Source of the DNA: Datnioides undecimradiatus
Lineage: Eukaryota > Chordata > Actinopteri > Lobotiformes > Datnioididae
DNA length: 64,000 nucleotides
Direction of reading: 5' to 3'
NCBI GenBank assembly: GCA_008933995.1
Contig: WARS01000031.1
Span: forward strand, 5,805,979-5,869,978
Shown here piece after piece: positions 11,588-36,000 of the stretch. Both the position numbers and the translations under genes were made by a program. How positions within the stretch are numbered: the stretch's first letter is position 1; every line of letters begins with the position of its first letter. The notes beneath the pieces were generated by a model that saw nothing but the letters and a program-made list of their open reading frames with translations, was not told where the DNA came from and ran no database searches.

Positions 11588-13048
11588 CTACTTCCCTGCA
11601 TTAGAGCGCCCCTCGATGGACAGTTTGACCTCCTGGGGGATGAACGACGGCCTTGTGTGGCCGGACGTGCTTATTTGAGGGCGTGGCCCTTCGTCTCCCT
11701 TCATATTGTATCTTTGGAGGCCAGGTGAGGACCAGCGCCTTTGAGAAGCACCTAGTGCAGCCTGCATTGCTCCCATCCCCGCCGCTGCAAAAGCAGAGCC
11801 CTCTGTGTGCAAGTGGTAACTGCTCTGGCTCCTTGGATGCTCTGCTGAGGTCCTACTTGGTCTGTTGGACGACTCAGTGTGCCCAACAACCCCACAATGT
11901 GTGGCTTCCTCCTTATCAACCCCATCTTTTTCGCCGTCCCTCTGTCTTTCTCTGTGGATGCGGTCTAGTCTGAAGTGAGACTGAGGCCTTGACTGCTGAG
12001 GGGCAGGAGGCCCCATGAGCTGGTGACCAGGCCCTGATGGAGCATTAGTTTTGCTCAAAGTCCTGGACAGGTTCTGCTGTTGTTGTTGTTGCTGTTGTGA
12101 ATGATGGTGCTGTGGCTGTTTCTGCTGCTGTGGCTGAAGCTGCTGCTGCTGCAGAGTGATGGACACACACACGTCTCCTACTTGCAGATGATGGCAGGTC
12201 AAGCCGTACAGCTGGGCTGTGCGTTCAGGGCTACAGGACGACCAGCCCTGACCAAACACAAAGAAGGGATGCTCCGGGGGCACATCGATGGTCACTTTGC
12301 TCTGCTGCTCCCCTACAGTGAAGTGAAGCGACACAAGGCCTGGCCTCTGCTGGCTGGCACGGATGTCCACCACCATGCTGGAGTCAATCTTGAGCCCCCC
12401 GCTTACCTCAGCACTCCGCACAAAGTCCTGAGTCTGCAGGTCCTCCACACGCTTCAATTCCCCAGTAGCCAGCTGGATAATGGCCCCCTTCATGAAGTGT
12501 GACGGGTTGCAGGAGGCCTGGGCAGGAGTGAGGCTTGAGGCTAAGGCCTGAGTCACATCTGCTGTAGGCTGGACAGGAGGCTGCTGGGGGAGCTGCTGCT
12601 GAGCTGTAGTCGAATCTGCCCTCTCAGGGAGGCACACCCTGGCAGAAGAATCCGAGGCTTTAAAGCTTGGGTTAGGCGAGGCCATGGTGGTGGAGGCATG
12701 GCTGGCTGAGGCATCGTTAGCCTGTCCTGGGTAGTGTTGCTGTGGTGGTTGGGGCTGATGCTGCAGGTGATACTCCAGGGGTATAAGAACTGGTTGTCCA
12801 TTGGCAAGCATGACAGCATGGCCCGGTTGTCCCGATTGCTGCTGGACGCCAGTCACTCTGGGGTCTCCATAATTTACAGGCTGCGCCATGTATGCAGTTC
12901 GACCAGATACAACACCTGTGCTCTCTCCATGGACATCTCTGGCTCTTTGTGCACCCTGAGAGAGGTTCAAGGGAGCAAAGGAGACCTCTTTACGTGCTCC
13001 AGTAGCACCTTGGCTGGAGGAAGTTAAACGACCAACCACCTGCTGCAC
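11588..13048 (-). CDS. atxn1l: atxn1l coding exon 2 (AXH domain, Gln/His tract, C-terminus)
   Basis: The acceptor TTTAACTTCCAG ends at 13049, the exon opens VQQVVGRL and stops with TAG at 11588-11590. It encodes residues 356-841. The AXH domain lies at about 12499-12150. The following CAG/CAA-mixed tract (about 12147-12070) encodes Gln and His with a few Pro and Lys. Antisense frames across this exon are shadows. Confidence 0.92.
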   Translation of the reverse strand: MQQVVGRLTSSSQGATGARKEVSFAPLNLSQGAQRARDVHGESTGVVSGRTAYMAQPVNYGDPRVTGVQQQSGQPGHAVMLANGQPVLIPLEYHLQHQPQPPQQHYPGQANDASASHASTTMASPNPSFKASDSSARVCLPERADSTTAQQQLPQQPPVQPTADVTQALASSLTPAQASCNPSHFMKGAIIQLATGELKRVEDLQTQDFVRSAEVSGGLKIDSSMVVDIRASQQRPGLVSLHFTVGEQQSKVTIDVPPEHPFFVFGQGWSSCSPERTAQLYGLTCHHLQVGDVCVSITLQQQQLQPQQQKQPQHHHSQQQQQQQQNLSRTLSKTNAPSGPGHQLMGPPAPQQSRPQSHFRLDRIHRERQRDGEKDGVDKEEATHCGVVGHTESSNRPSRTSAEHPRSQSSYHLHTEGSAFAAAGMGAMQAALGASQRRWSSPGLQRYNMKGDEGPRPQISTSGHTRPSFIPQEVKLSIEGRSNAGK

Positions 13049-13374
13049 CTGGAAGTTAAAGATCAAGGAAATGAAGCGCTGGTCAGACTAACTTTTCTTT
13101 ATGGAGATACACAAAGAACAAGTCAAAACTGGCCTGATGTGTTTCCCAAAAGAAATCCAAACACTTGCAGTCACTGACACTTGATTTACAGAATGTATGT
13201 GTAAAATATCTGTGGGTCTCAGTGGATACAGAGGATAACTACATTTAACCATCTCATCAGTCAAGCCCTAAACTGAGTCTGTTACACCACTATTTCTGGC
13301 CAAATATTTGTATGCAACAGGATATACACAATAATTTTAAAAGATGTTTTGACACCAGCAAAGGAAGACACAAG

Positions 13375-13413
<39 letters not shown>

Positions 13414-15181
13414 CAGTTTCCTTCCTACGGTAGCGAGAGTGTGAAGTTGCTTGCGATGGTTTTTATTAGTAATTGTTAGCACATCTCCTTATTTGATTCA
13501 ATATTCAATTTATTTATAAGTAAAAACTATTTTACTTATAAATAAACCTTCTTTCCTTGCACAGTATCCCAAAAGAAGCCCACTGAGGGTTTAACTGCAG
13601 CATGTCCATGAATATACAAATGGCCTAGCTTTGGCACAAAGTGTCAGTTGTCTAGCTGTGAGTGATTGCTACAGACCCACAGTACACAATGACAGAAGGA
13701 AGTAGAGTCTAAAATTAACACGTGTAATTAGGTCTTAGAAATACAGAGGTAAGAAAATGGTTAGGTAAGAGCACTTTGAACACTATGAATTCATTCACAT
13801 GCACATCAACAGCAGACTGCTTTGAGTAATCATGTAAAGCCTGGAGGTCAGATTACTCTAACACTCAACTGCAATCTTTGGTTGCTTTCAGGGTCCTTTC
13901 ATTCACATGTGCAGCTTACAACAAAAAAAGATCAGGGTATAAATAAACAAATAATTTGGTTTCCTTATCAATCTTAAATTTAATGTTTAATTTAATGTTA
14001 ATCCCTATTACATTTACGATGTAAAATGGTTTTGTGTTTTTTTATGGATTGTAACAGTTTACTGCTAAAAGATGACAATGCTCAGTTTAACACAGAAGGC
14101 CTTTAGTGAGTCTCACCTCCAGATCGCTGTCTGGAGTGCTGCGCTGGCCAGGTGAGCTCCTCTCTTCCAGCCTTCGGTTCTGGAGGCCTCTGTCTTGGCT
14201 GGGCTCCTGTGCTGCAGAGCTGGACGCTACTTGCAGTAGACGTGCATTTCTAGGAATGTAGGTTGAGTCTACTACAACCTCCCTGGTTCCCTGCTCCTTT
14301 TCTCCTCCATTCATCTCTGGTTCATTCTCCTGCTGGGCACTGTGGGGGTCCCTGGTGGCAGTGGCAGCCCTGGCCCCCTGAGCATGATAGAAGACTGACA
14401 TCCCTCGAGAGCTAACCTCTGTTGCAGGCAGGACTCCCACAGTACCAAGGTGCTGCTGGGCAGCTTGCTCTGAAGGCAACATCAGTGGGACACCACTGGA
14501 TGCTGCAACTTTGGCAAAGGTATGTGCAGCCACCTGGGCCTGGGGAGGTGGAGAAACAACGCCTTCCTGTATGACAGATGGATAGGGGACAAGGTGGGAC
14601 ACAGCATGGGGCTGAGGAATGGTGCCTGAGGGAGAGATTAATGATCCCGGGACAAAGCCAGGGGGTAGAGCGTAAGGTACAGCTGCATAGGGGGAACTAA
14701 CAAACTGAAGAGAGGAATGAGGGATCTGGGCATAACCGAGAGGAGGATAGGGGAGGCCTGGATGCTGCAGGAGAGGTGAGTGTACAGTGTAGGCTGGAGA
14801 GATGTGGCTTAACACTGGGTGAAGACTGGTAGGCGAGTAGGTAACAGATGGAAGAGCCACTTTGTAGAGCATACTGTACTGGTCAACGGGCACCGCTGGT
14901 ATGCCATCTGAGTTATCCACTCCATAATGAAGCCCTGGCTGAGCTCGCAGCCACTCTGCAGATGGGGCCCCTCCCTGAGTGTCACTGTTGGCTGCAGAGT
15001 TCTGGGTGGAAACAACCTCATCTTCTCCAATACCACCACCAGCATTACTGCCACCTCCGCTGCCACCACCTCCCCCTGCAGCTCCACTCCCCGTCCCTCC
15101 AGCTCCACTGCTGTTATTGACTGGAAGGTCTCTCTTCTTTGGAGGCAGGCACTCCTGATTGCGCTCCTGAGCTGGTTTCAT
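11588..15181 (-). CDS. atxn1l: Ataxin-1-like protein (BOAT), AXH domain, two coding exons
   Basis: Coding segments are join(15181-14117, 13048-11588) on the - strand: 1065 + 1461 nt, 841 residues, phase-0 intron (donor GTGAGA, acceptor TTCCAG). The start MKPAQERNQECLPPKKRDLP matches the ATXN1L N-terminus. An in-frame ATG seven codons upstream (15202) was not chosen because homology begins at MKPAQE. The order is: Gly-rich run (about residues 24-50); conserved DQYSMLYKVALP and proline-rich LQHPGLPYPPLGYAQ blocks; TPDSDLEV at the splice junction; AXH domain at about residues 538-654 (SHFMKGAIIQLATGELKRVE...); Gln/His tract 655-680; and the conserved C-terminus IPQEVKLSIEGRSNAGK. The human protein is about 690 residues, so this one is longer, mainly in low-complexity parts. 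ATXN1L acts in the nucleus with ataxin-1 and the repressor Capicua, stabilising CIC and repressing its targets; the AXH domain mediates dimerisation and partner binding. It could only be confused with ATXN1, but both ends match ATXN1L better. Confidence 0.95.
13381..13409. repeat. (AG)n microsatellite
   Basis: Fourteen to fifteen uninterrupted AG dinucleotides within the atxn1l coding intron. Confidence 0.95.
13509..13546. repeat. perfect 17-bp inverted repeat with 4-nt loop
   Basis: TTTATTTATAAGTAAAA (13509-13525), loop ACTA, then its exact reverse complement (13530-13546). It could form a cruciform in DNA or a hairpin in the atxn1l pre-mRNA, with AATAAA present in both strand senses. Confidence 0.95.
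14117..15181 (-). CDS. atxn1l: atxn1l coding exon 1 (N-terminal half)
   Basis: Encodes residues 1-355, from the ATG at 15179-15181 to the donor GAG|GTGAGA at 14117/14116. It contains the N-terminal KKRDLP motif, a Gly/Ser-rich stretch, and the Tyr/Pro-rich region shared with vertebrate ATXN1L. Reading through the donor would add only nine residues before a stop at 14087. Confidence 0.92.
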
Positions 15182-15303
15182 TGCAATCCTCTGATCGAGC
15201 AAATAGCTTTACTGTACTGCACAGGAACTGAAACTTGCAAGGCAGTCAGCCTGCACAGGAACCAGTTCTGAAATCACCTGGCTGACCTCATCTGCCACTT
15301 CAC
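15182..15303 (-). other. atxn1l: atxn1l 5'UTR part of coding exon 1
   Basis: Sequence between the ATG and an acceptor-like TTTATTTGCAG ending at 15304. It implies at least one upstream non-coding exon. The acceptor call is by pattern only. Confidence 0.5.
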
Positions 15304-17600: not shown

Positions 17601-20600
17601 ACAGTTATGTGTGACTGTGACATTTAAACAGAAATCTACAGATCACGTGTTTTATTTCTGCAGAAAGATAGTAAAAAAAAAATGCAGATTTTAATCAGTT
17701 TGCACAAAATGCAACAGTAGTCTAAGAAGACAGAACCAAGAAATAAAGTTTGTAAAAATGCATTAAATGTACATTTTCACATTTTATGCAGCAGGGGGAG
17801 CTGGAGGTATATGTACTAAATGGAGTTCATTCTATGATGGCGATTTTATCATGTTGCATGTCTGTCTCTCTGTGGCCCTCTTCAAAAACAGGCCATTTCT
17901 AAAACCCTCCGGCAGTTATTACAGTAACTGGAATTGAATTTTATCTAATTTAGATGTGACCCAGCATACTATGTGTGTAGCCTCCTCGTCTATAACCATT
18001 TAGTTGTTTTGACATCATTTGCTATTTGACACAGGAAATATGCTGTCTTTTTATGTCCGTGACTACGGACATGATAAATCACTTTTGTCACACAAAACCA
18101 TGGCTGTATTAGGTTGTTAGGGAGCACACAGTGAACCACTTCTTGATTAAATAAAAATGTGAACTGATCAAAATGCATCAAATAGTAACATAAAGTGAAA
18201 TTATTTTTCAATTTTGGGCAATTTTTGAGTAGCCTAATGCTGAAAGAACATAAACTGCCAAAAACAATTGACCATATGTTAAAAAATTGTGATGTTAACT
18301 TAAATGAAAATATCTTGAAAATGGTCAGCTTCATGCCTCTGGGTGCACTAATGAAGAATATCAATAGGCTTGTTCACAGCATTAGGTTTTACACGTCTCA
18401 GCAGCACAAGCACAGGTGTAGTTAAAGACATTAATAATATCTGGATCCTGTGCAGGTTTTTCAGTTTCCTGTTGTTGTGCATGGCTCGCCCCTAGCATGT
18501 TTTATTGTGACACTACTGGAATATCACTACTGTAGATGTTATTTGTCACAATGTTGTTTTCCCTACTATGGTCTGTCAAAATATCTGCTGTAAAAATGTC
18601 ATCAGCAAGACAAAGCTATCTATCATTAACTCTTCGACTAAACTTAGATTTGGTAACATTAACATCCTACAACAAAGCTTTATTGTAAATGTAAAGTTCT
18701 TATACAAGAATGAGGAACTAAATATCATAATTTCCCTCTTAACCAGTGTTAAACACTATATCACATGGTCTACACTGGCTATCCAATGGCCTTAAAGCAA
18801 ACCAAATTACACTGTGTTTGTTGTCCCACAGTATCATGTGCATTAAAGTGGGCAACGGTTCACTTGGCCTCTTTAAGGGCAATGGAAATACTTAAATTAC
18901 TTACAAACTAAGACAAAATATACTCTACGTACACAACTATGCACTAGCACACATTTGTCACATTGTTCTTTGCTGGTTTATACTATAGGATTTCTTATCC
19001 TACAAAAACTGATCTGCATTTGTTTGTGTCAGCATTAGACTTTCATGTTGCACATATGGAAAGTCTGAGTCTGATCTGTAACTCAAAAAGCTGTAGATCT
19101 ACTCTTGTATATCACATACTGAATAAATACAGAATGAGGTCTGTAACATCAGTTTTAAAGCCCACCTGAGTTCTTCGGTATCTGGACATAGGTTCTAGGT
19201 AAATTTGTGTTGTGTGTGTTTGGAGATGATGAATGCAAATATCCATGTTTGAGCATATTTTCTATATTGGCATATTTATAGTGTATAAAAATGAGCAAAT
19301 TGTTTAATTAGGATCTTATTCATGTTTTGCTTCTAAGATTGTAAGATCAATTTTGCATTGTGATTTTTGTTGTTAATCACTAGGTGTCATGTGGTAAATA
19401 ACTTCTTTTTACAGAAGCATATACAAAAGGTAAGTCTTAAGTGGTTCTGCCGAAGAGATCAACCGCAAACCTTGTGCACGATTCATTCATTGAACCATCT
19501 GAGAGAATTTCTCCTGTTTTTACTTCTCATGGCCTTTGTGTCTTTCTATCCGTCATTTGTTCTGAGGGATCTTAATGTGTTTAACACTTCACTACTTTTT
19601 TAAATTGGGATCTTTCTTGAAAAGGCCCAGAGAAACTCTAATACTAATGTTTAGCATTAATTGTGATCATCACTTGGTGCAAGGAGTCTTTGTGGATATG
19701 AACACAGCAGGTAGGTTGAAAACTCTTCCCTTGGCCAGAACAACTTGCTACCCATCTCCTCTAATTGTCAAAGATTTGTGTAAGAGGCTTTTTGGTGTTT
19801 GTTATATGGCTTATGTTGTCTGAGGTTAAAAGACAAAATGAGTGGATTCTTTTCCAAGGACAGATTTGCTTTCATCAGTGAAACCCAGTGAAAATAAAAC
19901 CCAGAGAGCACATTCACTTAAAAATAATATAATGATTGGTTACTGGTACACAATTGAGCCTTATTTTCTGGTAGGAAACAACAGCTTCAGTGCAGTACCT
20001 CTGAATGTAACTAGAATTACAGAACTGATAAATCATCAGCTTTAGAAAACTAAAATAAGACAATAGATTCAGAATATAGTTACAAAAATGGTAAGTTTTC
20101 CCAAAAAGGCACGGGGGGGTGGGGGGGGGTGTACAGTAGCAATTGCATCCCTCTTGGAGAACATTTGCATAACTGAATAAATACATCTACTGCTAATCAA
20201 TATCAAACTGTGCTACAGTGGAAGCACAATTATCATGCAATTACAGCAGAGTGCAACACTGTGAATTAGTGGAAAAAAACCCACAACATATAAATATCTC
20301 TCCAGAAAATATAAAGACTAAATCAAGAATAAAAGTTATTTAGTACCATTAATCAAAAATATTAATTGGAAGATTTCAAGCATATACAGTTTTTATAATA
20401 TTTGCCAAAATTATATTCAAATAACCACCTTAAAACAAACTATCCTATATATTGAATAAAATGTGCAATTAATAGCATTTGGGAGAGCAGGTTCTGCACT
20501 CACACTATACACATCTACATCAAAAAACACCTGAACTAGTTATTGCCAAAGAATCACGAGTTTATCTGTTGGTAACTGGTCAATCTAGCATCTAAGGATT

Positions 20601-22479
20601 GATGCGCCTGTATAATAGGACAGTTATTGAGCCGGACCAGTGGTCTTATTGTTAAAATGACAAAGGGCTTTTATGATAGATGCTTAACTGTTATTTTAAG
20701 ACATTATAATGTTACACAGTGTGAGTTTCTAGCCAGTTTTAAAAAGGCACTGGTTAACTGATCCATTTCTCCTTATGTGCATCAAACCAGTCCCTAGTTT
20801 AGTGGGTAGTCAACTTCTGAGGCAGACTAATGTCAAAATCTTTTAAGTTGGTTTGTTTTCTACCACACCGTTTCTCTACACAGAGAATTTTCTGGACAAT
20901 AACAAATGTAAGTATTCGTGTAGCTACGTACAGCATGTTTAACAGTGTATACAGTTTACTTCTTTGTCCCTCTGATCCTTTTCCCTCTGTAGAAAACAAA
21001 ACAGTGAACATTGAAATGTTATAATTACACAAATGGTGTATTCATAACACTTGCTATCAAGATTACTTTACTGATTACTTTCCTTTCTCATGTGCTGGCT
21101 TGAAACTGTGTCACTGTTCATTGACCCATCACTGTTGAGTTCAATGGATCAGAAACTTCGAAGTCTGAAATTTAATTCACTACGTACTAAAGTAGAGACT
21201 GGTTTGAGTCAAAGCCCTTGTCTGTCCCTTTGCTTTCAAATATTTATGTATTCACCTACTGATAATCAGAGTAGTTCCTCCTCAGTGCCTTACCAGAAGG
21301 CCTCTAGAAAAGTTTAATAAACCCCCCCTTCAAAAGAAAAGAGGAAATATCTACCACAGATTGAAGTCCTTACAGCTCCACTTCCCCCTCACCTGCTGCA
21401 GGATACAGAAAATAAAGGGCGTTTTTCTCTGCTTCAAAAATAGAGTAAATCTACGAAGTAAAACCCTGAAATCACACTATTTGCCACTTACAGTGAAACC
21501 CCAACACAACCATTAAAATCTGGGCACTCAGAGCAAATAGCATTACATTTGTGCAAAAACAAAAAACCCCAACAAAAAAAAAACCAAAGAAAGAAAAAGT
21601 TAAGAAGGAAGAAAAAAAAAACAAAACGGCCTGTTACATTCAACCAGGCCAGATCCTCTTTACTGCATAGTATAAGTATGTCTTAGCAGTGTTATTTTCT
21701 GTTCCTCTTTCTAAAATAAAAATAGGTAAAATATTATACTATCTTCAATTACATTTCCAAGAAGGTACAGACATACTGAGTACTTGGAGATCAGTGTTCA
21801 GTAAAATGCACCATTGACGCTGCAATAAAACCTGGTATTTTCTAGTTTCAAGCAGTCCCATTTGGATTAAAATGCTGAATTCCATTACAGTGGGGGTGTC
21901 TTACGGACCAATGAGAATTCAAAGAAGGGACAATTAACCTGACATTCCTACACACATAGGTGAATAGCAAAAATGTATTTAATTGCAGTGAATCACAGGG
22001 AGCTCTGAACCTCATCTTGACTCAACATTAAAGTCTCCAAAAGCAGCTTCTGCGTGGGTCATACAGTACGCTCAGCAAAAAGATCTGTTAGCTTAGCTAA
22101 ATCTTGAGAAAGACATCTTGAAAAATACATCTGTTATAAAAATGCCTAATGATCTTTCACAGTCAAGAGAGCTCACAGTAACGACTCACTGGCCAATAAG
22201 GAGGCTGTGCTTCAGTGTGCTTCATCTGAACTCCTCAACTGCAGTGGACGATAACGATTCAAGCCTGTAGATGATGCTTCACTTTAGAAATTACCTCAGA
22301 TTTCAATGCAGCTTCAATGGTGCAAACTAGCTTATAAATAATTAAAAATCAGAAGTCCAGAGTTACATTTTTCTATTTCTCATTTTCCTTCTTGGTATTT
22401 AAGAAAGAGGCAATAGAAAATAAGATGATTAATTGTTACGTGAGCCCGTACTGAGCTCAGAAAAGTGAGCCCCACAGTC
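17601..22479. other. mtmr10 3'UTR plus intergenic DNA
   Basis: AT-rich sequence between the atxn1l promoter and the mtmr10 stop. Part of the right side must be mtmr10 3'UTR. The nearest variant hexamers in its sense are ATTAAA at about 21978-21983 and 21313-21318, and the nearest AATAAA is at 18679-18684, so the end is unresolved. It contains a G-run at 20113-20129. Short frames at 17990-18364 and 18568-19169 show no recognisable domain. Confidence 0.45.
20113..20129 (+). repeat. G-tract (G7-T-G9), potential G-quadruplex
   Basis: Two long G runs separated by a single T on the + strand, enough for several four-run quadruplex registers. In the mtmr10 sense it is a C-tract. Confidence 0.7.
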
Positions 22480-23091
22480 TCAGAGAGCATCATTAGCTAG
22501 AGTCTCTGTAGAGAGCCAGATCCTCGCCCCATTCAGAAATTTGCTAATGGGAGTCCCATGCACACTGCGGCGGCACAGGTTTCCCACTGGCGTGAAAGGA
22601 AAGGAGGAGGTAAGGAAGTCTGGAGGTGTAGGGGGATCATTTGGGGAACTGGCCTTAAAATACATCCTCCTCTGGTCTGAAGGGGGCCCACTTGGGCTAG
22701 GGAGTGGAGTGCTGCCTGGACTAGGTCCCTTGTACTGTCTGAGCTGGCTCTGTAGTATCTCAATTTCATCGACCAGTTGGGAGAGCTTGTGGTAGGCGGT
22801 GATAGAGCCTCCTTTGGGAATGCAGGCTTCAGGAACCCAGCGAAGAAAGAAGAGCTTCCAGAGTGCCATGTGTGAGGGCATGAGCAGAGGGATCAGGACA
22901 CCCTGCTGGTCAGCAGGTCGAGAGAACCAGTCCCTGAAGAAGCGCTCTGACGGGCTATCGTCTTTCACTGGTGACAAATCGGGCTTCAGCTCTGACAACA
23001 GGGAGCCCCGTCGGGGCAGTGTATCCTCTCCGCCCCTCAGTCCATTACGCAGAGATGCAGGCGTTCCTCGCAAAGTGGAACTGTAGTTTTT
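22480..23091 (-). CDS. mtmr10: mtmr10 terminal coding exon
   Basis: Encodes residues 564-766, from KNYSSTLRGTPASLRNGL to LSTETLANDAL and TGA (22480-22482). The acceptor is a CAGCAG tandem: using the upstream AG (exon from 23094) adds one Gln. I chose 23091 because human MTMR10 reads RTKKSYSS without the Gln. A helix-rich stretch (HKLSQLVDEIEILQSQLRQ) may form a short coiled coil. A Pro/Ser linker and the conserved SSFPFTPVGNLCRRS motif follow. Confidence 0.92.
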   Translation of the reverse strand, partial: KNYSSTLRGTPASLRNGLRGGEDTLPRRGSLLSELKPDLSPVKDDSPSERFFRDWFSRPADQQGVLIPLLMPSHMALWKLFFLRWVPEACIPKGGSITAYHKLSQLVDEIEILQSQLRQYKGPSPGSTPLPSPSGPPSDQRRMYFKASSPNDPPTPPDFLTSSFPFTPVGNLCRRSVHGTPISKFLNGARIWLSTETLANDAL

Positions 23092-26000
23092 CTGCTGGAG
23101 GGCAGACACAGTTAATTACTTTCCCTAAACATGACAAACAAACTCTGACAGGCTGCAGCAGCAGGCTGAACAACGAACACTCACTTGAATCCATTAGTGC
23201 ATCTCAAACTGCATTATCAAGTTTTCATGTGCCTTAAAACTACAACTTCATGAAAGAAAACACGTTTATTTTCTGTGTAATAATTCACTTTCTGTACCTT
23301 TTCTGAAGTTGCTGATGGCACACAAACAACACACCTTCGTAACATCTCAGCAGCAATAAACAAAACTGCTGAGTGGATGGATTGCTCATGCTAAACATTT
23401 ACTCGATCAGAAATTGTGTGAAAACAGTAATACATGCCTCTGTTATAGCTGTAAGAAGGTAAAGGATTGTCTTGACATATTGTGAGAATACCTACACAAC
23501 CTTATTGATCCTAATCTGACCTTAAAAATGGCAGGGTTATGGAGTGGTGAGCAAACCCAAATCCAAAGTAGTAAAACAAGAGAGAAAACATAAAACAGCA
23601 AACACTGTGCTGCTACTACTGCTGCTGCTATAAACAGGTAAAGCTCAGTTAGTGTTCCATGTACCTTCGTGCGTCTGAAGGTTTTCACTTCCCCATTTTG
23701 AACGCAGGCAGCTCCTTTTCCGACATACATGGGGTTATTAAAGAGCGTTTGGTCTTTGGTGGAGAACTGCTGTGACCAGTTCCAAACAGGAGGGAAATAC
23801 ACAACATGGTCCTCTCCTTGTGGGATGGCTTTATTCTTGGCAAAGTCCTGCAAAGTAAACATGTTATTCACACTCGGTACATTGTATTACATACAACATT
23901 CTTGTACACTATGAAGTCTGACAGACTAGAGACAATAATCCCTGAGGGTAAACAACAAAGCCACAAATGCCTTAATTTGCTTTTGTCAAATGTATCAGTT
24001 ACTTTCCTGACCACCAGCTAAATGCTTTCTTATCCATGTACTTTACAATTCACCTTCCTGTCAATTATCTCTCTCTCTCTCTCACTCACACTCACACACA
24101 CGGGGAAATTATAATCTTTGACATGAAATTCTACCTTGCTGCACACCATCACCTGTAATTATAATGTGTTGGTTTTGTTCCTTATACCACTGACAAAAAC
24201 ATTATTATTATTATTATTTTTGTGAACACATTTTCATTGATCTAATATTTTACATTTCACTTTTAAGAAGGCACAATTCAGATAGTTATTTTTTGTTAAA
24301 TGTTTACATTTAATCAGTGACGATCTTTAAAATTTAATTGATATCAACATGTATCAGGATTAAGTTGAAACTTTTGGTGCACATCTCATGTATCAATGTA
24401 GCATCAAAATTCAACTAAATAAATTAATTTAAAATCATATATGTATCTCTCACCATCAAGTGCTGAGCCCGCTGTTTGGAAGAATTGAAGAGGAAAGTAC
24501 TGAAGAGTGGGATCCACATGCTATCACTCAGTATTGTCAGATAGGTCTCTGTGAACTCGAATGCTGCGGGGTACTGATTCATTATCTGCCACACGCAGTC
24601 CAGGAAAAGCATGAACACTGGGGACTTGAGAGAAAAGGAGAGCCACAAACAACAAAAATATTAAGTGCCTTGGCAAATTGATACTGTCTCTCACTGGGTT
24701 GTTCACGATTAGAAAAATACCTCCTCTTTGTCGTTCTTCTTCAAGTGGTTGCATCTGTCCAAGAAGCGATGGCCAGCCATCACCCACTCCTTCTGCACTA
24801 AACTCTGAAAGCCGATGAGGCTGCGATAATGAGGGTCCAACATGAGCTGCACCAAGGAGGACACGACACAGTTCAGGTCTCTGTCTTCTTCCTCTGCACA
24901 GGAAGGGGGGAAAAAACAGACAAAATAAAAAACTGTTTGTATGTAAGCAGTTTCAATATAATATGGTAATAACTCTAATTATTCCACAAACATTGTATTT
25001 TGACTCCTGTGCAACATATTCTAAGTTTGAAGCCAAATGTTGGCACAATATCACAAATGATGGACGTCGTGTGAGTTTATTTGTGGACACCATGTGTGTA
25101 ATTACAGCGCAAACCTAAAATGGGTCTCAGTTCTTTTTTTTCTTGTGACATATGGAATTAAGCCAGGCTATAATAGCTTATTTTGCAATAGGAAATTACA
25201 AATCAAAAGCTAAATTAACCCTGAAGTCACATAAAGAATAAAAGAAAATGTTACTCTGGGACATCTTGACTAAAGACTGTGAGGCTTTACATCAAAATAC
25301 CATGTGGAATAACGGCAGATAAAAAAAGATAACAGAGAGTTTTACCTTGAAGAATGACTGAAACATTCTTCCCATCCAGGTAGTACACCATCTCAGCCGA
25401 GTGTTTCAGGAAGGCCCTTCAGTCACAAACGGAGTGAGAAGAAAAACAGAAAGAAACAAGAGAGAAAGTTATTTGTCTGTTTATGGACTAATTACTGGTC
25501 AGGCAAGAAGATGGCGATAGCCAGGAGAGAAGCTTGCTGCCAGTCAACAGTTCTACAATTCCACATTTCTACAATGTCCTTTGGCAGACGCTTTTATCCA
25601 AAGCCACGTACATATAGAATAGGTACAACACAAGCGAAGATTTAGGTAGGTAAAGCAACGCGGACAAGTGCTAAGAAATGTTTTAAGTCCAGTAGGACCA
25701 AGGTGTCGAGGATGGTAGTGTCGATGTCAAGTGTTTTTGTTTGTTTTTTTATTGTTTTATTTTTTGTTCGTTTTTTTAACGTGCTTGTTACGGGAGGAGG
25801 TGTTCGGAAAACAATAAGGTCTTAAATAGTTTCTTGAAGATTGTGAGGGACTCGATTGAATGGAGTTAGGTAACTCATTCCACCACTGAGAGACCACAGA
25901 GGAGAGACTCTAGCTTGTGTTTTTGGTGATGTTGGGACTAGACGTTTTTCATTGTGTAGAGTGTAGAGAGCGGAATAGGGTAGAGACCAGGGGGTTCAGG

Positions 26001-29000
26001 TAACCAGGAGCAGTTTTAGTTATAGTTTTGTTATAGCTTACGAAAGTTATAGTTTTGCCAGTTACCAAACTATAAATTTTAAGGCTAGATAATCATGCTG
26101 TTAGAACAAGTTAATTGAGAAATAGGAGTCAAGAGTAAAGAATACTCAAAATGTACAAATCTTTAACAGAAATATCATTTTGTAGTTAACAAATTGTGTA
26201 AAATGCACCTTAAAGAGGTATGAACTGCCAAAAACAGTCCAGAATATGCATGCAGGGGTTTTATATTCCAGAACGAACTACAAGGGTAACACAAACATTA
26301 TGAAGACTAGCAGGACATTTTAATTTTGGCTGCCCTGCAGCGTCAGGTTGTTTACATACCTGATGTACTCCAGCCAATGTGAGTTCTCAATAGATGAAAG
26401 CCACCTCTCCTCAGACTCTTCAAAAGGATCTGCACACCATCAAAATGAACAGTCAAACACTTGTTCATCTATAAAACCATACACAAGTCAGCTTCAACCA
26501 TTTCCATGTGAAAGAAGTTACATTTCACACAGAGGTTGGTGGTGGTTATCTACGGTAGATGTTGAAAGTTTGAAACTCACCCATGACACAGATCTGTCTG
26601 ACTTTAACAAAGGCAGTCTGGATGTCCTGGATGTTTGGCATACACTTGTCCAGATCAAACTTGACCACTTCACTGCGCTGTGGGTGGCTTTTTGTGATGG
26701 CAGCGTTGATCCTGTAAAGACACAAGACAGACAGACGTTTTAAAACATATGTGGCAACATCAAAGCAACACATCGTGCATATATTCAGAGCTTAAACAGC
26801 TAAATTTCCAAAAACCAAAAAAACAGTTAGAATGATATCAAAAATATAATTAATCTAAACACTTTTTCTTCTTCTACAGTTAAACTAGAGTAGAAAGAAC
26901 AGATTGAATCAGATGAATCTGAATGAAGCTGCTGTACCTCTGATCAATCTTCCTCTGCTGTAATGGATCACTAATGCTGGTCATGCGAACAAGAGCACTT
27001 CCATTTTGGTGATTCCAGCACCAGAGCTACAAGAAAGGATATGGATAAATCAGACATGGATCAATAAGCAAACAAGAAGGGCACACTGAACAATCCAGTT
27101 GGATGCTCCTTGAAAGATAATAATTACAAATGATTTTATCAATGATCCTTGCTTGTCAATAACATAACAATGCTGGCCAAATAATAAATAACTGACAGGG
27201 ACACAGCACAGCACCGGATTGATGCAGATACTAGAGCAAAACACTTACAGGGATCCGCTGATCTGTGAAGAATATAGAGTATTGCTTAAGATCCTGATCT
27301 GCCAGAGAAACTGGGACCACAACGTATTCTGGAAGACTAAAAGACGAATTATAGAAAGACCAGTGTTACACAGGAATCAGCAAATCAATCAACAAATGAT
27401 GCCATTAAAAAGAAAAAAGCATGAAAATAGATCTAGCCAAATGTATTTTAATGTTTCCCACAACTTAAAATGTTGTCGTCAGGATGGGACGTCCTAATGA
27501 TTATCAACATGCAAATATATTGTATGACTTAGCTTATTAGCATGAAAAAGATGGGCATGGCTAATTGTTTTGAACCATTTTGACGTACGATAATATAGTA
27601 CAAATGGCAGTGAAGCCTTTGGTTGATGTACTGTACATAACGTGTTAGTGCTGGATTTGTTTTGCAGTGCCTGTCTCGAATATCTAATCTGGTGAATATC
27701 TTTAGCATTGAGGTTTTTTTGATTGGAAGAAAACTGAATCAGGGTGGACTCTAAGTATTGTTTTAACCCCAAGTCATGTGTACAGTTTGGTGCAAGCTAC
27801 TATTATGCAATTACAAGTCTTTTCTCAAAATTCCACATAAAACACTGTACAATCCTGCCTTCTAAACCTAAGATGATGTCACCACTGAACTCAGATGAAT
27901 AGCACGTATTGTCCAAAATAGACTGGCGTGTTACGCTGAGACATTCACAAAGTCTTTTCCTTAAGTCACTCATGAAGAAAGTAAAACGTGTGTAAATACA
28001 CAGTCTTGCCAAAACATACCAAGTATGAGTAAAGACATGCTCTGCACACGATGGCCATTGAAAATGGCCTACAACAAACAACATGAGCCAAAAAACCTTG
28101 ATGAGATGGCATAGCTCTCGTTGATGGAGCACACCCTCCACTCTGATGCCCCTGTTCGCTTGATCTCTCGATCCCAGTCTGATGGACAGTCAAAAATGGG
28201 TGTTTGTAATCCTCCTCGAGGGCTCGAACCATTGACTCGCTCAACTGGAAATGGTGAAGAAATGAATAATGCAGAGAAATTAAACCAGAGTAGTCAACTT
28301 TGGATTAACTGGACAGTTTTGTTACGTCTTTAAGTCAAAAAGAAAAAAATGGCATGCTATGTGTGTACCTTTAGATTCATGGTATCGCCGCCCTTGATAC
28401 TCAAATCCAAAAAGCAGCTGAAGATCAGCCGGATGGGAATAGTGGGCAATAGCAAGGCAAACCTAAAATAAGTAGAAAAGTACTTTTATGGGTCATACAG
28501 TAAAAAAAAGAACTATTGCTAAATGGTGCAAACGATTATCAAGGCAGATGTGGTGATGTGATGTTTCATCACAACTGTTCAGCTTTCCGACTCTGGTTCA
28601 CTCAGAGGGTTACAGTGAGTTCTGAAGCATGTTCGGTAACCAGACAAACACAAGAACAAGTGAAACCTGGAAAGGCAAATGTTAAACTGACAGCCTGCTG
28701 CTCTGGGTTTACAGCACTGGATCTCTCTGTGGCTCCACTGGAGTCACACAAAGCAGCCCATTCAGTAGTAAAGCTGTGAATAACACAAGAGGACACAGAA
28801 AAAGTGCGTGTGTGTGTGTGTGTGTGCGCTCCCAACACTGTAATTTCCTATTGCAAAATAAGCTATTATAGCCTGGCTTAATTCCATATGTCACAAGAAA
28901 AAAAAGAACTGAGACCCATTTTAGGTTCGCGCTGTAATTACACACATGGTGTCCACAAATAAACTCACACGACGTGAGGGAGGGCAGACTTATTTCTATT

Positions 29001-30036
29001 ACAGTGTTGTATGCATAACTACCCTTCCATATGCTGCTGTATGCAGCAGAGTACACAAATTAAGATGAGTACTGCACTTTAAAATAAATCGAAAATTAGA
29101 CCTGCAACACCTGCCATAAAGCTGTTCAGTGCAGTTCAGTACTGTAATGCTGTTCTTAGACAGATGTGCTGCAGGTATGCACTGTGGGCCTACAAGTTCT
29201 CAGAATCCTACACAAAAATTGCTCCCAGATGATATGGAGGAGACCAAACATGCAACTGAACATTCACACTGACGAACACTTCATTGGCACAGTAAAGAGA
29301 TATACAGCCGCCTAACTCTTGTGGGTCATGTAGCAAGGCTGCAGGGAAGACTCAGGCACATAATTCACACAAATATTTATGTCCAGGACTTCTATAACTC
29401 CAGATACCACAGTGTTTTCAGACAACAGTCACAAGCAGTCACTAGGTCCCAAAGCCTGGTAGGTTCCTTCCAAGGCGACAACTTCCAGGTTGAACTAAAA
29501 GTGCCTGAAAGTCTTGGTAAATTCAGTCCACCGCTAGTTACCACAACAGCTCAACACAACTGACTAATATAAACAAGAAAATTCATGTTTTCCAGGCCTC
29601 AAGGCTCCAGTTTTGTTGGGTGGCCCCAGTTCCTGTGCTTCATAAATTCTTTCATATGAATTTAAGTTGACTTTCTCTATATGTTTGGCCAATGTATCTG
29701 CAATATATAGATTTTTTTAATTCCCCTGTACCTATTGTATCCCACATCTGCACTTCAATTTGAAGAATAAAACATCTGTCCAGCCAATCTCTCTGTGCAG
29801 GAGATGAGTCAGAGTCACGCTGCCAGTTGTTCCTACAATCAGGATCATTCTCTATTTCCTTTTCCTTGAATGAGCATTGTTCTCAATGTCTCTTATTCAT
29901 TGTTTGGCTAATGGCCACACTGACAAAGCTAGTTGAACAGTTAGTAATTTCTATTCAGAAGGAGCATATCAGAGCAGCATATCAAAGTTTATATGAAATA
30001 AATATCCTTGTTGCCGAGGAGGGGGTCATGGCACTG

Positions 30037-30087
<51 letters not shown>

Positions 30088-33000
30088 ACAGTGAGCTCAC
30101 ATCGTCAGGAAAGGAAAAGTTTAGTCAGCGGCACTAACGGTGAAATGGACAGCGGAAATGGAGTAAAAGGGAATGCTTGATACAGAGCCATTAGTCATTT
30201 GGCGGTATGAAATTAAGAGACAAGTAAAAGCTGCTATGTAAAATCTTGACTCAGTTCTTTCAAATATGAAACAATTGCAGTAAATAACGGTGCCATCTGT
30301 GTTGTGTTCATAGGAAAAGTGAGTAAGCAGCATGTATTTTTGATGCTACCACACAAAATCAGAAATGACAAATCTTTACAAATGGTAGCTTTATGTTGAG
30401 CTAAAGCTGGTAAGAGTCTGACAAGCATTGATCTGCTATTTTTAAAAGCCTGTTTAAAAGGGCACCGTGAAATTACTTGATTTGAAATAAAACAAGTTGA
30501 GAAAATGGAGCAGCACCCACCTTTTTGGCACTTTCAGGCCCTGCCTCATCAAAGCAGAACCTTATGATTCGCAAGTCTTTGCAGTAGAGGATGAGCTCTG
30601 TTGGGTTGAACTTCAGCTTTTGGTTTGACCCAAGCACTTTCTTCTTCCCTTTTGTATCATTTACTAAGAGGAACAAACAAAACATATACAAATAAACTTC
30701 CAATACAGTTATACAACACAATATTTAGAGATTAAATATTGTACTTTAAAGCACCTGCCACAGTAAGTATAAAAATCAACCATAAGAACTAAACACACAT
30801 TTCTGCAAAAGCTGAAAAACTGACTTTTGAGTCTAAGAGTTGTGGCAGTTTATATCACATAAGCAATGACAACATGAATTTGGAAACCAATCATAGACAA
30901 CTGTATGGTACATCAAAAAATAAACAGTTTTTTTTCTGGACACAGTAAAATATGTCCCATGTTTAATCTCCAGCACATCATGTTGAAATCAAAGCTAAAG
31001 GAATAATGCTGCATTCATCCAGAACAGTAACCCATGACTTTGACCTAAAAATAAGCCATTGCAGATCACATTTTAATTCTTATGCAAATATGATTGAAAG
31101 AAAGGACAAAACATCAATAATCAGGGGAGTCAAAACATACTGATATTTGATATTACTGGCTTTATCCAGCACTTGGCCCCTTTTCCTTTAAATGCTCCTA
31201 TACTTTTGCAAATCCCACAGTGATAATGTTGTGTAGACAGGTTCAAGCAGGTCAAAAACACTCTGGGTAAAACAAAGCTGCATGCTTAATCACTGTAGCA
31301 CAACAAACCTTGCTCTGGGCAGTTGCCCTTGCAGTGTCAGCGATCGACAGCAATGAGATATATAAACAAGGCTAATCCCAGCCCGGCTGCACTGTCACTA
31401 ATCACTGCTTTAGCTGTGACATCACCTGCTATCAGAGTGCTGATCAGGACAGGGCAACAAAGGAGACCAGTTACCCAGGCTGTCAAAGATTAATGAGAGG
31501 CCCATATCACTCTAATTCTGATTGTAGATTAGTGTTTGAAATGGCTTCGGATGCTAGCTGTCTGTGCTAAAACAGATCAATTATTTAATCAGAAGATCCA
31601 AACTGGCATCAAGATGTTACCTGTTACTACTTGCTCCAGACAGGTGAGGGGGATGTCATGCTCTCCAAGTAGCAGGTGGGACAACTTGGACTTCTGTAGT
31701 AAAGTAAAAACAATTGAAAAGTATTTAAGACATCCTGTACCCTGTAGACATTATATTACCCTCATTACTAACTGAAATACTGCCTCAAATACTGGTAGGT
31801 AAATTGAGTTAATCGTCTGAGCATGAGCAATGATCGAGCCTCTTTTTATTATGGCAACAATCTGCCCCATAGCTGGAAATGACGTTGGTTCTCTCACTTC
31901 TTGTGTGATATCACCAACAATGTGGTGCAGGAAAGTACACAAGTTTTCCTTCCTCCTTGCAGATGCACTGCACATACAAGCGAGGATGAGGAAATACAAG
32001 TATTTAAGGTATTCAGCTGTATGCTCGTGGCACCAACAGAATTCAGCAATAAAGATAAAATGGGTGCCATGGGACACATATAACTTTAACATTTTATGAA
32101 GAAAAGTAAACGTGTGTAAATACAACCTATGTTATTATGATGACAGGGCATCAAACCAACTGCATTATATTTTTAACCACTACTAAAAAAAGGATTCATG
32201 CAAAACAGCACAATCTGACTGCTTTACAGTTACTAGACCCAGTACCTGTTTCGTTGGGGCATCTTGAGGGATGAAGGAGACCTTAAAGTTGGTGCAAATC
32301 AACTTCCCCCAAAGTTCATCCTGGCTGCTCTCAGCGCTGATGCATTTCCTCACAAAGTTGACCTCATTAACAACTATCTCCCCTGGTGGCAAAAAACATG
32401 TGAGTGTTAAACATAAGTTTACCACCACAGTTCAAGAAAGACCACAGGCAGCGAAGATGACAAAAGCAAAGTAAACACAACAAAGTTCAACTGGCATGAC
32501 TTTGTCTTTCTAAACAATCAGACAGTCTGCAATGATTTTGGAAGCATTAACAGACAAAAAGTCACATGTAAAACTTGTATTATTCATAAAGCTTCTTATT
32601 TAAAATCACAAAATGCAACTGAAATCCAGTGAATGTGTATTAAAGGTAAAATATCTTGTGTTTTCAAAAATAGAAACTTAAACGTAAAACTGCCTTCAAT
32701 TTATGAACAAACAGATTTGCAATAAAACCCACTGAACATCCTGTATGACACAATCTTCTCTGTACATCAATATGCAACCACTTATAACTTTCTCATCTCA
32801 AATGCTTTTCTGTACAAGTAGTATGGCTATGAGAGGCTGCGTTGCAAAACCAAAAGCTAAAATTCAATTCTGCCACATGCACATCACATTATACAGATAT
32901 ATACATATACATTTTACTTTAGGCTAACGAGGCAGCTTTTCATATACTATCTTTATATGTAACCTGACCCTTGCCTCTTAACATGATCACAAAACGATTA

Positions 33001-36000
33001 ATGGTTAGACAAGAATGTGGCTATAAAAAGTCTCCCTGGGGATTTTTAAAAGATGAGAACTGGGGCAGCAGGGTGGAGTCGTACAGACAGTCTCATCAAA
33101 GGGCTGCATCAGAGCAGCAGGCAGCATATGTACAGTGAGCTGTTAATAAAACCTGTTTGTCTGATTGGCTCCAAGATCAACATGGGAAAAGAACAAGTGG
33201 CAATGCTGCCCGGAAATGGATGGAAGAGACATTGATCATTCTCATGTCAAACTTAGCCTATAGAAGATACACCTCAGTGAAGTACAGCAGCTTTACAAAT
33301 GATGACCTTTTTTAAGGGAATCTCTTACTTTAATAGATGACGTCATGTATATTTACTCCAAATAACACACGCGGTAACACTATGCAAAGGGTGTGTTGAG
33401 CCACTCCCATGACGTTCCGAAACTAAACTTCTCAGGTCTGAAACAGAGTAAATAAGTGAAATGAAGGCTTTCCTGTTGCTCCAGTTAAAAAACACAACAG
33501 AGAGTATCTGCATTGACTGGCAGAGGCTGAGAAAACAGGAATTAAGAATACTTTAACTAAAAAAAACTCTTAAAACAAGTTTTTAGACACTTGTTTTCTG
33601 TAAAAAAATAAATAACTTTCCCGTGACTGAGAAGTGGAGACACCAAGGTGATGAAGAGGACCTGCAAATAGAAATAAACTGCTGCTATACAAATAACACT
33701 GACAGGGTTATGTTTGTCAGTCCTCATGAGACTGTGCACTCACATCATCAGAAGACAGAGCAAAGACTTGTTACAGCAGGGTGGCACTGATTGACGAATA
33801 CATTAATTAGTTTACTAAGCAATTACAGTTGCCCAACGCAGCCAACACTTCAATGTGTGCTAGAAATATTTATAAAAAGTAAGTGAGCATGATGATGTGA
33901 TGTAGCCCTGAAAGTGACACTGTCAAGACACTGCACGTGCATTTTGATTGTGTATACAGAAACATGCAGTACTGCGGACGTTCCCACTTTTTGATGAGCT
34001 ACTGCAATGGCTACACATGCTCAGGATGGCAAGCGTGGCAATTCAGAAAGTAAAGCTTTAGGGAAGAGGGTGAAGACGCTTGTGAACTAAATGCTATGAA
34101 AAAGGGAAGTTTCTAATATATTCAACAACACTGTAGAGACTTCTCCTAAGTTTTTTTCTCTTCTGTGTCTACAATTTTTAAAACTTCCTTAAATAATGCT
34201 CCCTTCTGTTTAATTTACTAAGAATTAAATCTAGTTGACACACCAATATCTATATTTCTGATTTAAAGTTAATGTAGCACTCCCTAACGACAAGTTGTAT
34301 GGTTTACACTATTATCTTTAAGACAAACACTTTGTATCTCATGAGTGTTCAAATGCTTTGTATCTTAGGGACAGCATGGTCCCTACTGTGTATGGAGAAA
34401 TCTTGACAGCTTGAGAAAGCTGAAAATGGGAAATAAGATACGTTTATACAATCAAGGGCAATAAAAACATTTGCATTAGCTTAGGCTGAAACAGAGTTGC
34501 AGGTTTGCCTGAGTCAGCCAGCTATGAAATACAAAATAGGATCACTTATTATTTAAGTGCTCCAGATGAACTTCATCCAGGTTTTCTTAGCCAAATCTTG
34601 AGGCATTAAGAATTATGTTTGAGAGAGTTAGCGAGAGAAAGGAGAGGTGGAAGAGAGAGTGAGGAGATGTCGTGCTCTGGGCCAGTAAAGGGCCCTGTGC
34701 CAGAATCAGACCCATGCAGCTAATGAAAATATGGTACGCACACTACCAGGTGAGCTACCAGGACCTGTGACTACATAAGGTTCTATAGAAATGCAACACT
34801 GACCACCAGTAATATAAATGGGACAAAAGGAAGTAGGATACCCAATTCTCTATTTTAGAAGCTTCATACTAAAGTCATCGCTGAGGTTGACAATTGCATG
34901 CCTCAGAGGCCTCAACTGTATCTAAATTTTAGAGCGAACGGAGATGATTACTTTTGAGAAAATGTTTATAAAAGCTGTCACTCAAAGTTAAATGATAATT
35001 CTGGAGACATGAGTACCAAGGAAAACCATACAAAAAAGCAGGCCTAATTGCCATTTGGATAACAATATTGGTTTGAATCACTGGGAACAAAATGAGGGCA
35101 TCTGCAGAACCAAACTGAAGACACTGCTCTCTGTAGTTATGTAGTCAGTGACAAATTTATTCTTTTTCACCAATGTCTGCTGCCAACTCCCACATTACAT
35201 CCAAGGCAGGACACAGTACATCTAATACAGTGTAAATACAGTGTTTTGTTTGGTTATTAACATAATGTCTAAATAATGTTAATTGTTGGGTAATTGAAAG
35301 GTTTTCTGGTGCCAACTAATTTTCGTAAAATGCAGAAAATAAAACATACCTTGAAGCAACTTAGGTTCCAACTTTTTAATAGGTGGTTCAATTGTCTTCT
35401 TCACATCAGTCTAGAGAAAATACACAAGTCAAATGAGAGTTAGTTAACCACTAGTTCAACACATTGTAAATGAATAATGGCAATAAAGTGTAATCATAAA
35501 GTTGGGACACTCAAAAATAAAGTCAAGTTGAACATCCTGTAAGCTGTTATGATTTGTTTTGTTAAATTAAGGTTACATAAACCGTTAAATCATGCAGGAA
35601 ATGACATGCTTTGTGCATGTTGTTTAAATAACTGGAAGGAACTGGAGATACAAAGCATTTGACTGATGCTATGACTACTGGATCTCCAAATACTGCGCAC
35701 AGTGCACAGTTACAGATACAGTGACAGCTCATAAGCATTTGGACAGTCATGTGTTTTCACTGTTGGCTCTGCTCCAGCAAACTCTTTAAAGAGAATGAAT
35801 GACTGTGGGGTTAAAGTGCTGACTTTCCGCATTCAGAGTGTAGGAGGTGGAAGTGTAAGAATTTGGGTTAAGTAAATCATTCAAATTATCAACGAGATCA
35901 GAGCATGGTCATAAGAGTATGATTTTGAATGTGGATCATCTTTCAAAAACAAAATGCCACTGAAAAAACGTATCTAGATGGAAAAAAAACACTTCCCTAC

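Follow-up and report, generated by a model that had tools for sequence, protein, structure and literature searches.

Alu pairs provide reverse complementary matches in introns that flank circular RNAs (circRNAs), and paired inverted intronic repeats form ADAR substrates. In worms, such matches promote back-splicing and exon skipping alike, and at zip-2 a 13-nt match suffices (PMC8330042, accessible portion). Carp circRNAs from the two subgenomes have similar reverse complementary matches, according to the available text of PMC11579021. A review of fish circRNAs states that DHX9 and ADAR destabilise the pairing of intronic repeats and so counter circles, and the words 'flanking' and 'inverted' are absent from its accessible sections (PMC8268770); circRNAs are also reported as regulated by ADARs in the available part of PMC8938519. 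On the side of origin, templated insertions that combine several templates with microhomology have been described as a class of germline change (PMC8421209, accessible portion), and short-range template switches in apes have a median of 12 and a maximum of 128 nt in the accessible text of PMC7954356.

We analysed a 64,000-nt stretch of the Datnioides undecimradiatus genome (the window; C479:5805979-5869978 in the 581 Mb and 497 contigs that were searched; all positions below are window positions). A minus-strand gene in the window carries Pfam matches to 3-PAP (22480-23115, E 2.3e-48) and Myotub-related (24709-24978, E 3.5e-18). These are the two of its eight pieces that score above the cut-off; the other six have no Pfam match up to E 0.1, and exons 6-12, when joined, match Myotub-related (E 2.1e-24). 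We take this myotubularin gene with a 3-PAP domain to be mtmr10; the numbers of exons 6-12 are those of the original prediction, made from the sequence of the window, and the located part of the gene spans 22480-32431, with exons 1-4 outside the model. Intron 11 holds the motif TTTGGCAGACGCTTTTATCCAAAGCCACGTAC at 25580-25611, which is presumably widespread in fish genomes. Near the myotubularin gene, on the minus strand, an ataxin-1-like gene occupies 11591-15208 as two long open frames, with an AXH domain at 11591-13087 (E 3.5e-42) and ATXN-1_C at 14090-15208 (E 4.2e-09). A literature search found no mention of circMTMR10 in various spellings; MTMR10 and circRNA occur together, once each, in one paper, an osteosarcoma lncRNA study. 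The arms of the inverted pair and the exons around them are as follows.

24721..24893, minus strand, exon 13; placed directly after exon 5, it gives RKKTET followed by a stop
25064..25200, no strand assigned, arm 1, in intron 12 (25345-24894, 452 nt)
25346..25416, minus strand, exon 12, predicted donor side of the back-splice
26360..26429, minus strand, exon 11
26581..26711, minus strand, exon 10
26938..27026, minus strand, exon 9
27249..27336, minus strand, exon 8
28097..28244, minus strand, exon 7, with donor GTTTTTTG
28369..28462, minus strand, exon 6, predicted acceptor side of the back-splice
28839..28975, no strand assigned, arm 2, in intron 5 (30520-28463)
30521..30663, minus strand, exon 5, phase 0 with exon 6

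The original prediction had placed both arms in introns of one minus-strand transcript, on either side of seven exons, and this layout stands. Its exon boundaries and splice sites agree with ours (exon 6, 28462-28369; exon 12, 25416-25346), the seven enclosed exons do sum to 691 nt, and exon 5, which ends at 30521, continues into exon 6 in one reading frame. Arm 1 begins 145 nt past the exon 12 donor and ends 170 nt ahead of the exon 13 acceptor; arm 2 is followed, 376 nt downstream, by the exon 6 acceptor. Like known circRNA-flanking matches, the locus has complementary introns around exons of one transcript, for which full pairing is predicted here. It differs from flanking repeats that belong to abundant families in that its arms, whose RNA pairing is predicted, are a single-locus duplication. 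The Sry inverted repeats are nearest in spirit, although their arms exceed 15,500 nt (PMC8330042, accessible portion) and those of mtmr10 are far shorter. The likeness to ADAR substrates formed by intronic repeats lies in a long, near-perfect intramolecular pre-mRNA helix, here a predicted one, whereas the mtmr10 arms are not members of a repeat family. The pair fits known kinds and is not surprising in itself; what is new is that the searches of its genome located no further copy and that a template switch is suggested by one junction.

Arm 1 and the reverse complement of arm 2 share 136 of 137 positions, exactly as had been claimed, and the single difference is the CpA/CpG change described earlier, with A in arm 1 and G in the reverse-complemented arm 2, within GCGC[A/G]AACC. 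The likeness stops sharply at both ends, with flanks that lack homology; chance is out of the question as its cause. The pair is the sole self-match in the 64-kb window at E<=1e-6 (3e-64, low-complexity filter on) and the only inverted pair of at least 40 nt within 20000-35000, and no second inverted pair of at least 35 nt and at least 80% identity (E<=1e-3) lies wholly within the located part of the gene, 22480-32431. Among 19 background tiles of 10 kb, each cut from the contig that holds the window and able to reveal pairs up to 10 kb apart, the longest separated inverted pair has AT-rich 63-nt arms (86%); the remaining separated pairs are 36-49 nt and mostly simple repeats, and longer matches are low-complexity palindromes. 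Since these tiles hold arms of at most 63 nt, pairs like arm 1 and arm 2 are not common nearby, a statement about 190 kb of one contig, which is too little for a genome-wide rate. The inverted-repeat scan also returned a self-complementary 38-nt stretch (89%) at window positions 13509-13546.

The original prediction had proposed a genome-wide BLAST of the 137-mer, and this search gives two places, both in the window, namely arm 1 and arm 2. Because counts of the BLAST type skip very common words and are lower bounds, we added a pattern search with a 33-mer and a 31-mer, one from each half of the arm; at up to 3 mismatches each finds the same two places, and reversed-pattern controls find none in the genome. 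The flank at 28976-29600 (625 nt) occurs at one place in the genome, so no alternative-haplotype contig is seen. Two genome places for the 137-mer argue for a single-locus inverted duplication and not a dispersed transposon. The 137-nt arm does not look like a common dispersed repeat, on counts that are lower bounds. Rfam gave no match in the whole window at the gathering score; within 25000-25260, at E up to 5, its one match scored 16.2 bits against a gathering score of 50 (E 3.9) and was judged chance. The arm had no match among phage records at E up to 1, nor did a 24-letter arm pattern in viral contigs, and the exon 7 protein, used to look for stray fish DNA, gave 160 pattern stretches in prokaryote genome contigs, none of them confirmed. 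Three other candidates were set aside: a SINE or MITE, given just two genome places, no terminal inverted repeats and no adjoining target-site duplication; a retrocopy, given that the arms are intronic and contain no exon; and a small-RNA gene, given the lack of an Rfam match.

The junctions of the arms carry the evidence on origin, and three short features are needed to follow it.

25195..25200, plus strand, ATTACA, the end of arm 1, proposed as the 6-nt microhomology of a second switch (putative role)
28833..28844, plus strand, CAACAC|TGTAAT, spanning the left end of arm 2, with six flank and six arm nucleotides
28998..29009, plus strand, ATTACAGTGTTG, the proposed first template (putative role), identical in reverse complement to the junction sequence at 28833..28844

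We propose that the pair is a single-locus inverted duplication made by templated insertion through serial template switching, in which arm 1 was copied into intron 5, and we hold this reading to be somewhat better than an even bet. Its basis is the two genome places, the sharp ends, the lack of terminal inverted repeats, the enclosed exons lying in line with exons 5 and 13, and the junction match: ATTACAGTGTTG is an exact 12-nt inverted match to the arm 2 left junction, 22 nt beyond the right end of arm 2. A strand replicating or repairing in intron 5 would have ended in CAACAC and paired with GTGTTG just ahead (6-nt homology), and the 6 nt TGTAAT would then have been copied from this first template. 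Through the 6-nt TGTAAT homology, the strand would have switched to intron 12, 3.6 kb off, landing at the end of arm 1; after inverse copying of 137 nt it would have rejoined at GAGGG. Which way the copying ran and through which switches is our inference, which the 12-nt match at one junction fits; arm 1 is the more likely source and arm 2 the more likely inserted copy. Of 4000 points drawn at random from the window, 7 have an inverted match of at least 12 nt, which makes ~0.7% over four junctions, a figure that rises if direct matches, which were also looked for, are counted. A straddling match of at least 7 nt within 250 nt is lacking at the other three junctions, one of which, on the right of arm 2, is where copying would have stopped. 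Further short matches to the arm 2 left junction, 8 nt inverted at 28610 and 9 nt direct at 27841, show that such likeness does not always carry meaning. A GT run at 28808-28826 stops 12 nt short of arm 2; GT runs can break or stall replication, and this one may bear on the origin of arm 2.

The proposed event resembles germline MMBIR or template-switch insertions in being an inverted copy of nearby DNA with microhomology at one junction, and more than one template also figures in our model for arm 2 (PMC8421209, accessible portion). It departs from that class in three ways: microhomology of at least 7 nt is not found at the other three mtmr10 junctions, the accessible text of PMC8421209 describes templates sought within 100 bp whereas the proposed mtmr10 template lies 3.6 kb away, and 137 nt would have been copied. 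The 3.6-kb jump and the 137 nt likewise exceed the short-range switches described in the accessible sections of PMC7954356.

The same type of event in the opposite direction, in which the intron 5 copy (arm 2) would be the source and the intron 12 copy (arm 1) the insertion, is a minority reading to which we give limited but real weight. A 6-nt direct match, ACAAAT, stands around the ends of arm 1, one of its copies shifted by 5 nt and the other lying half within the arm, and might point to arm 1 as the insertion; the 12-nt inverted match could likewise be a pre-existing hairpin that halted copying mid-stem. Neither junction of arm 1, on the other hand, has a straddling inverted or direct match of at least 7 nt within 250 nt.

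It is improbable, in our view, that the arms belong to a selected or long-kept circRNA architecture in which gene conversion, or selection for pairing, holds them alike. The full pairing in the transcript would suit such an architecture, as would the sole change giving G-U and not a mismatch, the splice sites close to the arms and the located part of the gene without a competing inverted pair. A single change, however, cannot demonstrate selection for pairing, and youth explains the near-identity equally well. The 13-nt match that is enough at worm zip-2, according to the accessible portion of PMC8330042, implies that 137 nt need not be kept.

Two independent insertions of a very low-copy mobile element would account for two copies with sharp, identical ends, but we regard this as highly improbable. 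The patterns of 31 and 33 nt, with up to 3 mismatches allowed, find no third place in the genome, the arm ends show no terminal inverted repeats (3 of 15 positions match), no adjoining target duplication was found at the arms, and the window has no Rfam match at the gathering score. For such an element, the sole two hits in 581 Mb would lie 3.6 kb apart by a striking coincidence. That the pair is an assembly artefact is a general possibility of very slight probability, against which stand the one-base difference between the arms, their unrelated flanks, the absence of any N in the window and in the 19 tiles of the 6.49-Mb contig, and the single genome place of the neighbouring 625 nt. An inversion with staggered breaks would leave inverted duplications at both ends of a 3.6-kb segment, much as seen here, but is scarcely credible: the seven enclosed exons all read in the direction of exons 5 and 13, and the reading frame continues from exon 5 to exon 6. 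At present, then, the segment is not inverted.

The pair was also claimed to be of recent origin. This is a fair reading of one difference in 137 (divergence 0.7%; 95% Poisson range 0.02-4.1%), but gene conversion between the arms could also maintain their likeness. We draw no date, because such conversion could hide time.

The structural half of the circRNA interpretation is supported, and its functional half is a model-based prediction. That the co-transcribed arms can pair, as proposed, is borne out by the predicted fold of a 4221-nt pre-mRNA piece (29100 to 24880), which holds 137 of 137 arm-arm pairs in a calculation that leaves out proteins and co-transcriptional splicing. The predicted helix is unbroken over 137 bp, with a duplex energy of -244.5 kcal/mol; the sole difference between the arms becomes a G-U wobble in the transcript and would be A-C on the opposite strand. 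This helix would bring the exon 12 donor and the exon 6 acceptor together. By analogy with described systems, paired arms would yield some circular exon 6-12 RNA and some mRNA in which exon 5 is joined to exon 13 with an early stop, and would act as an ADAR substrate. Back-splicing of exons 6-12, skipping and A-to-I editing are thus plausible on this model, and their effects are most likely minor and near neutral. The expected break of the reading frame on skipping is borne out by the sequence: exon 5 joined to exon 13 gives RKKTET and a stop after six new codons, and the skipped message would therefore probably decay. Around the circle, whose 691 nt are not a multiple of 3, all three frames meet stops. 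On the sense strand of arm 1 we noticed, by eye, an AATAAA that could act as an intronic poly(A) signal hidden by the helix; this reading was rejected, the word being too common to count.

That one copying error, in a single step and without a transposon, made a complete mtmr10 circRNA and exon-skipping switch in this lineage is a bold reading that we consider unlikely. If it were true, a 137-bp intronic helix without a competing pair would divert a fraction of mtmr10 to a 691-nt circle and a truncated message, and the locus would amount to a natural before-and-after experiment on mtmr10 output. Should the circle exist, the locus would gauge the circRNA output of a new single-locus intronic helix, free of confusion with repeat families, through a comparison with a sister species in which one arm is missing; if there is no circle, the pair would caution that even 137 bp of nearly perfect inverted repeat in introns can be of no consequence. 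Within the enclosed exon set, the exon 7 donor at 28097 looks weak when judged by eye.
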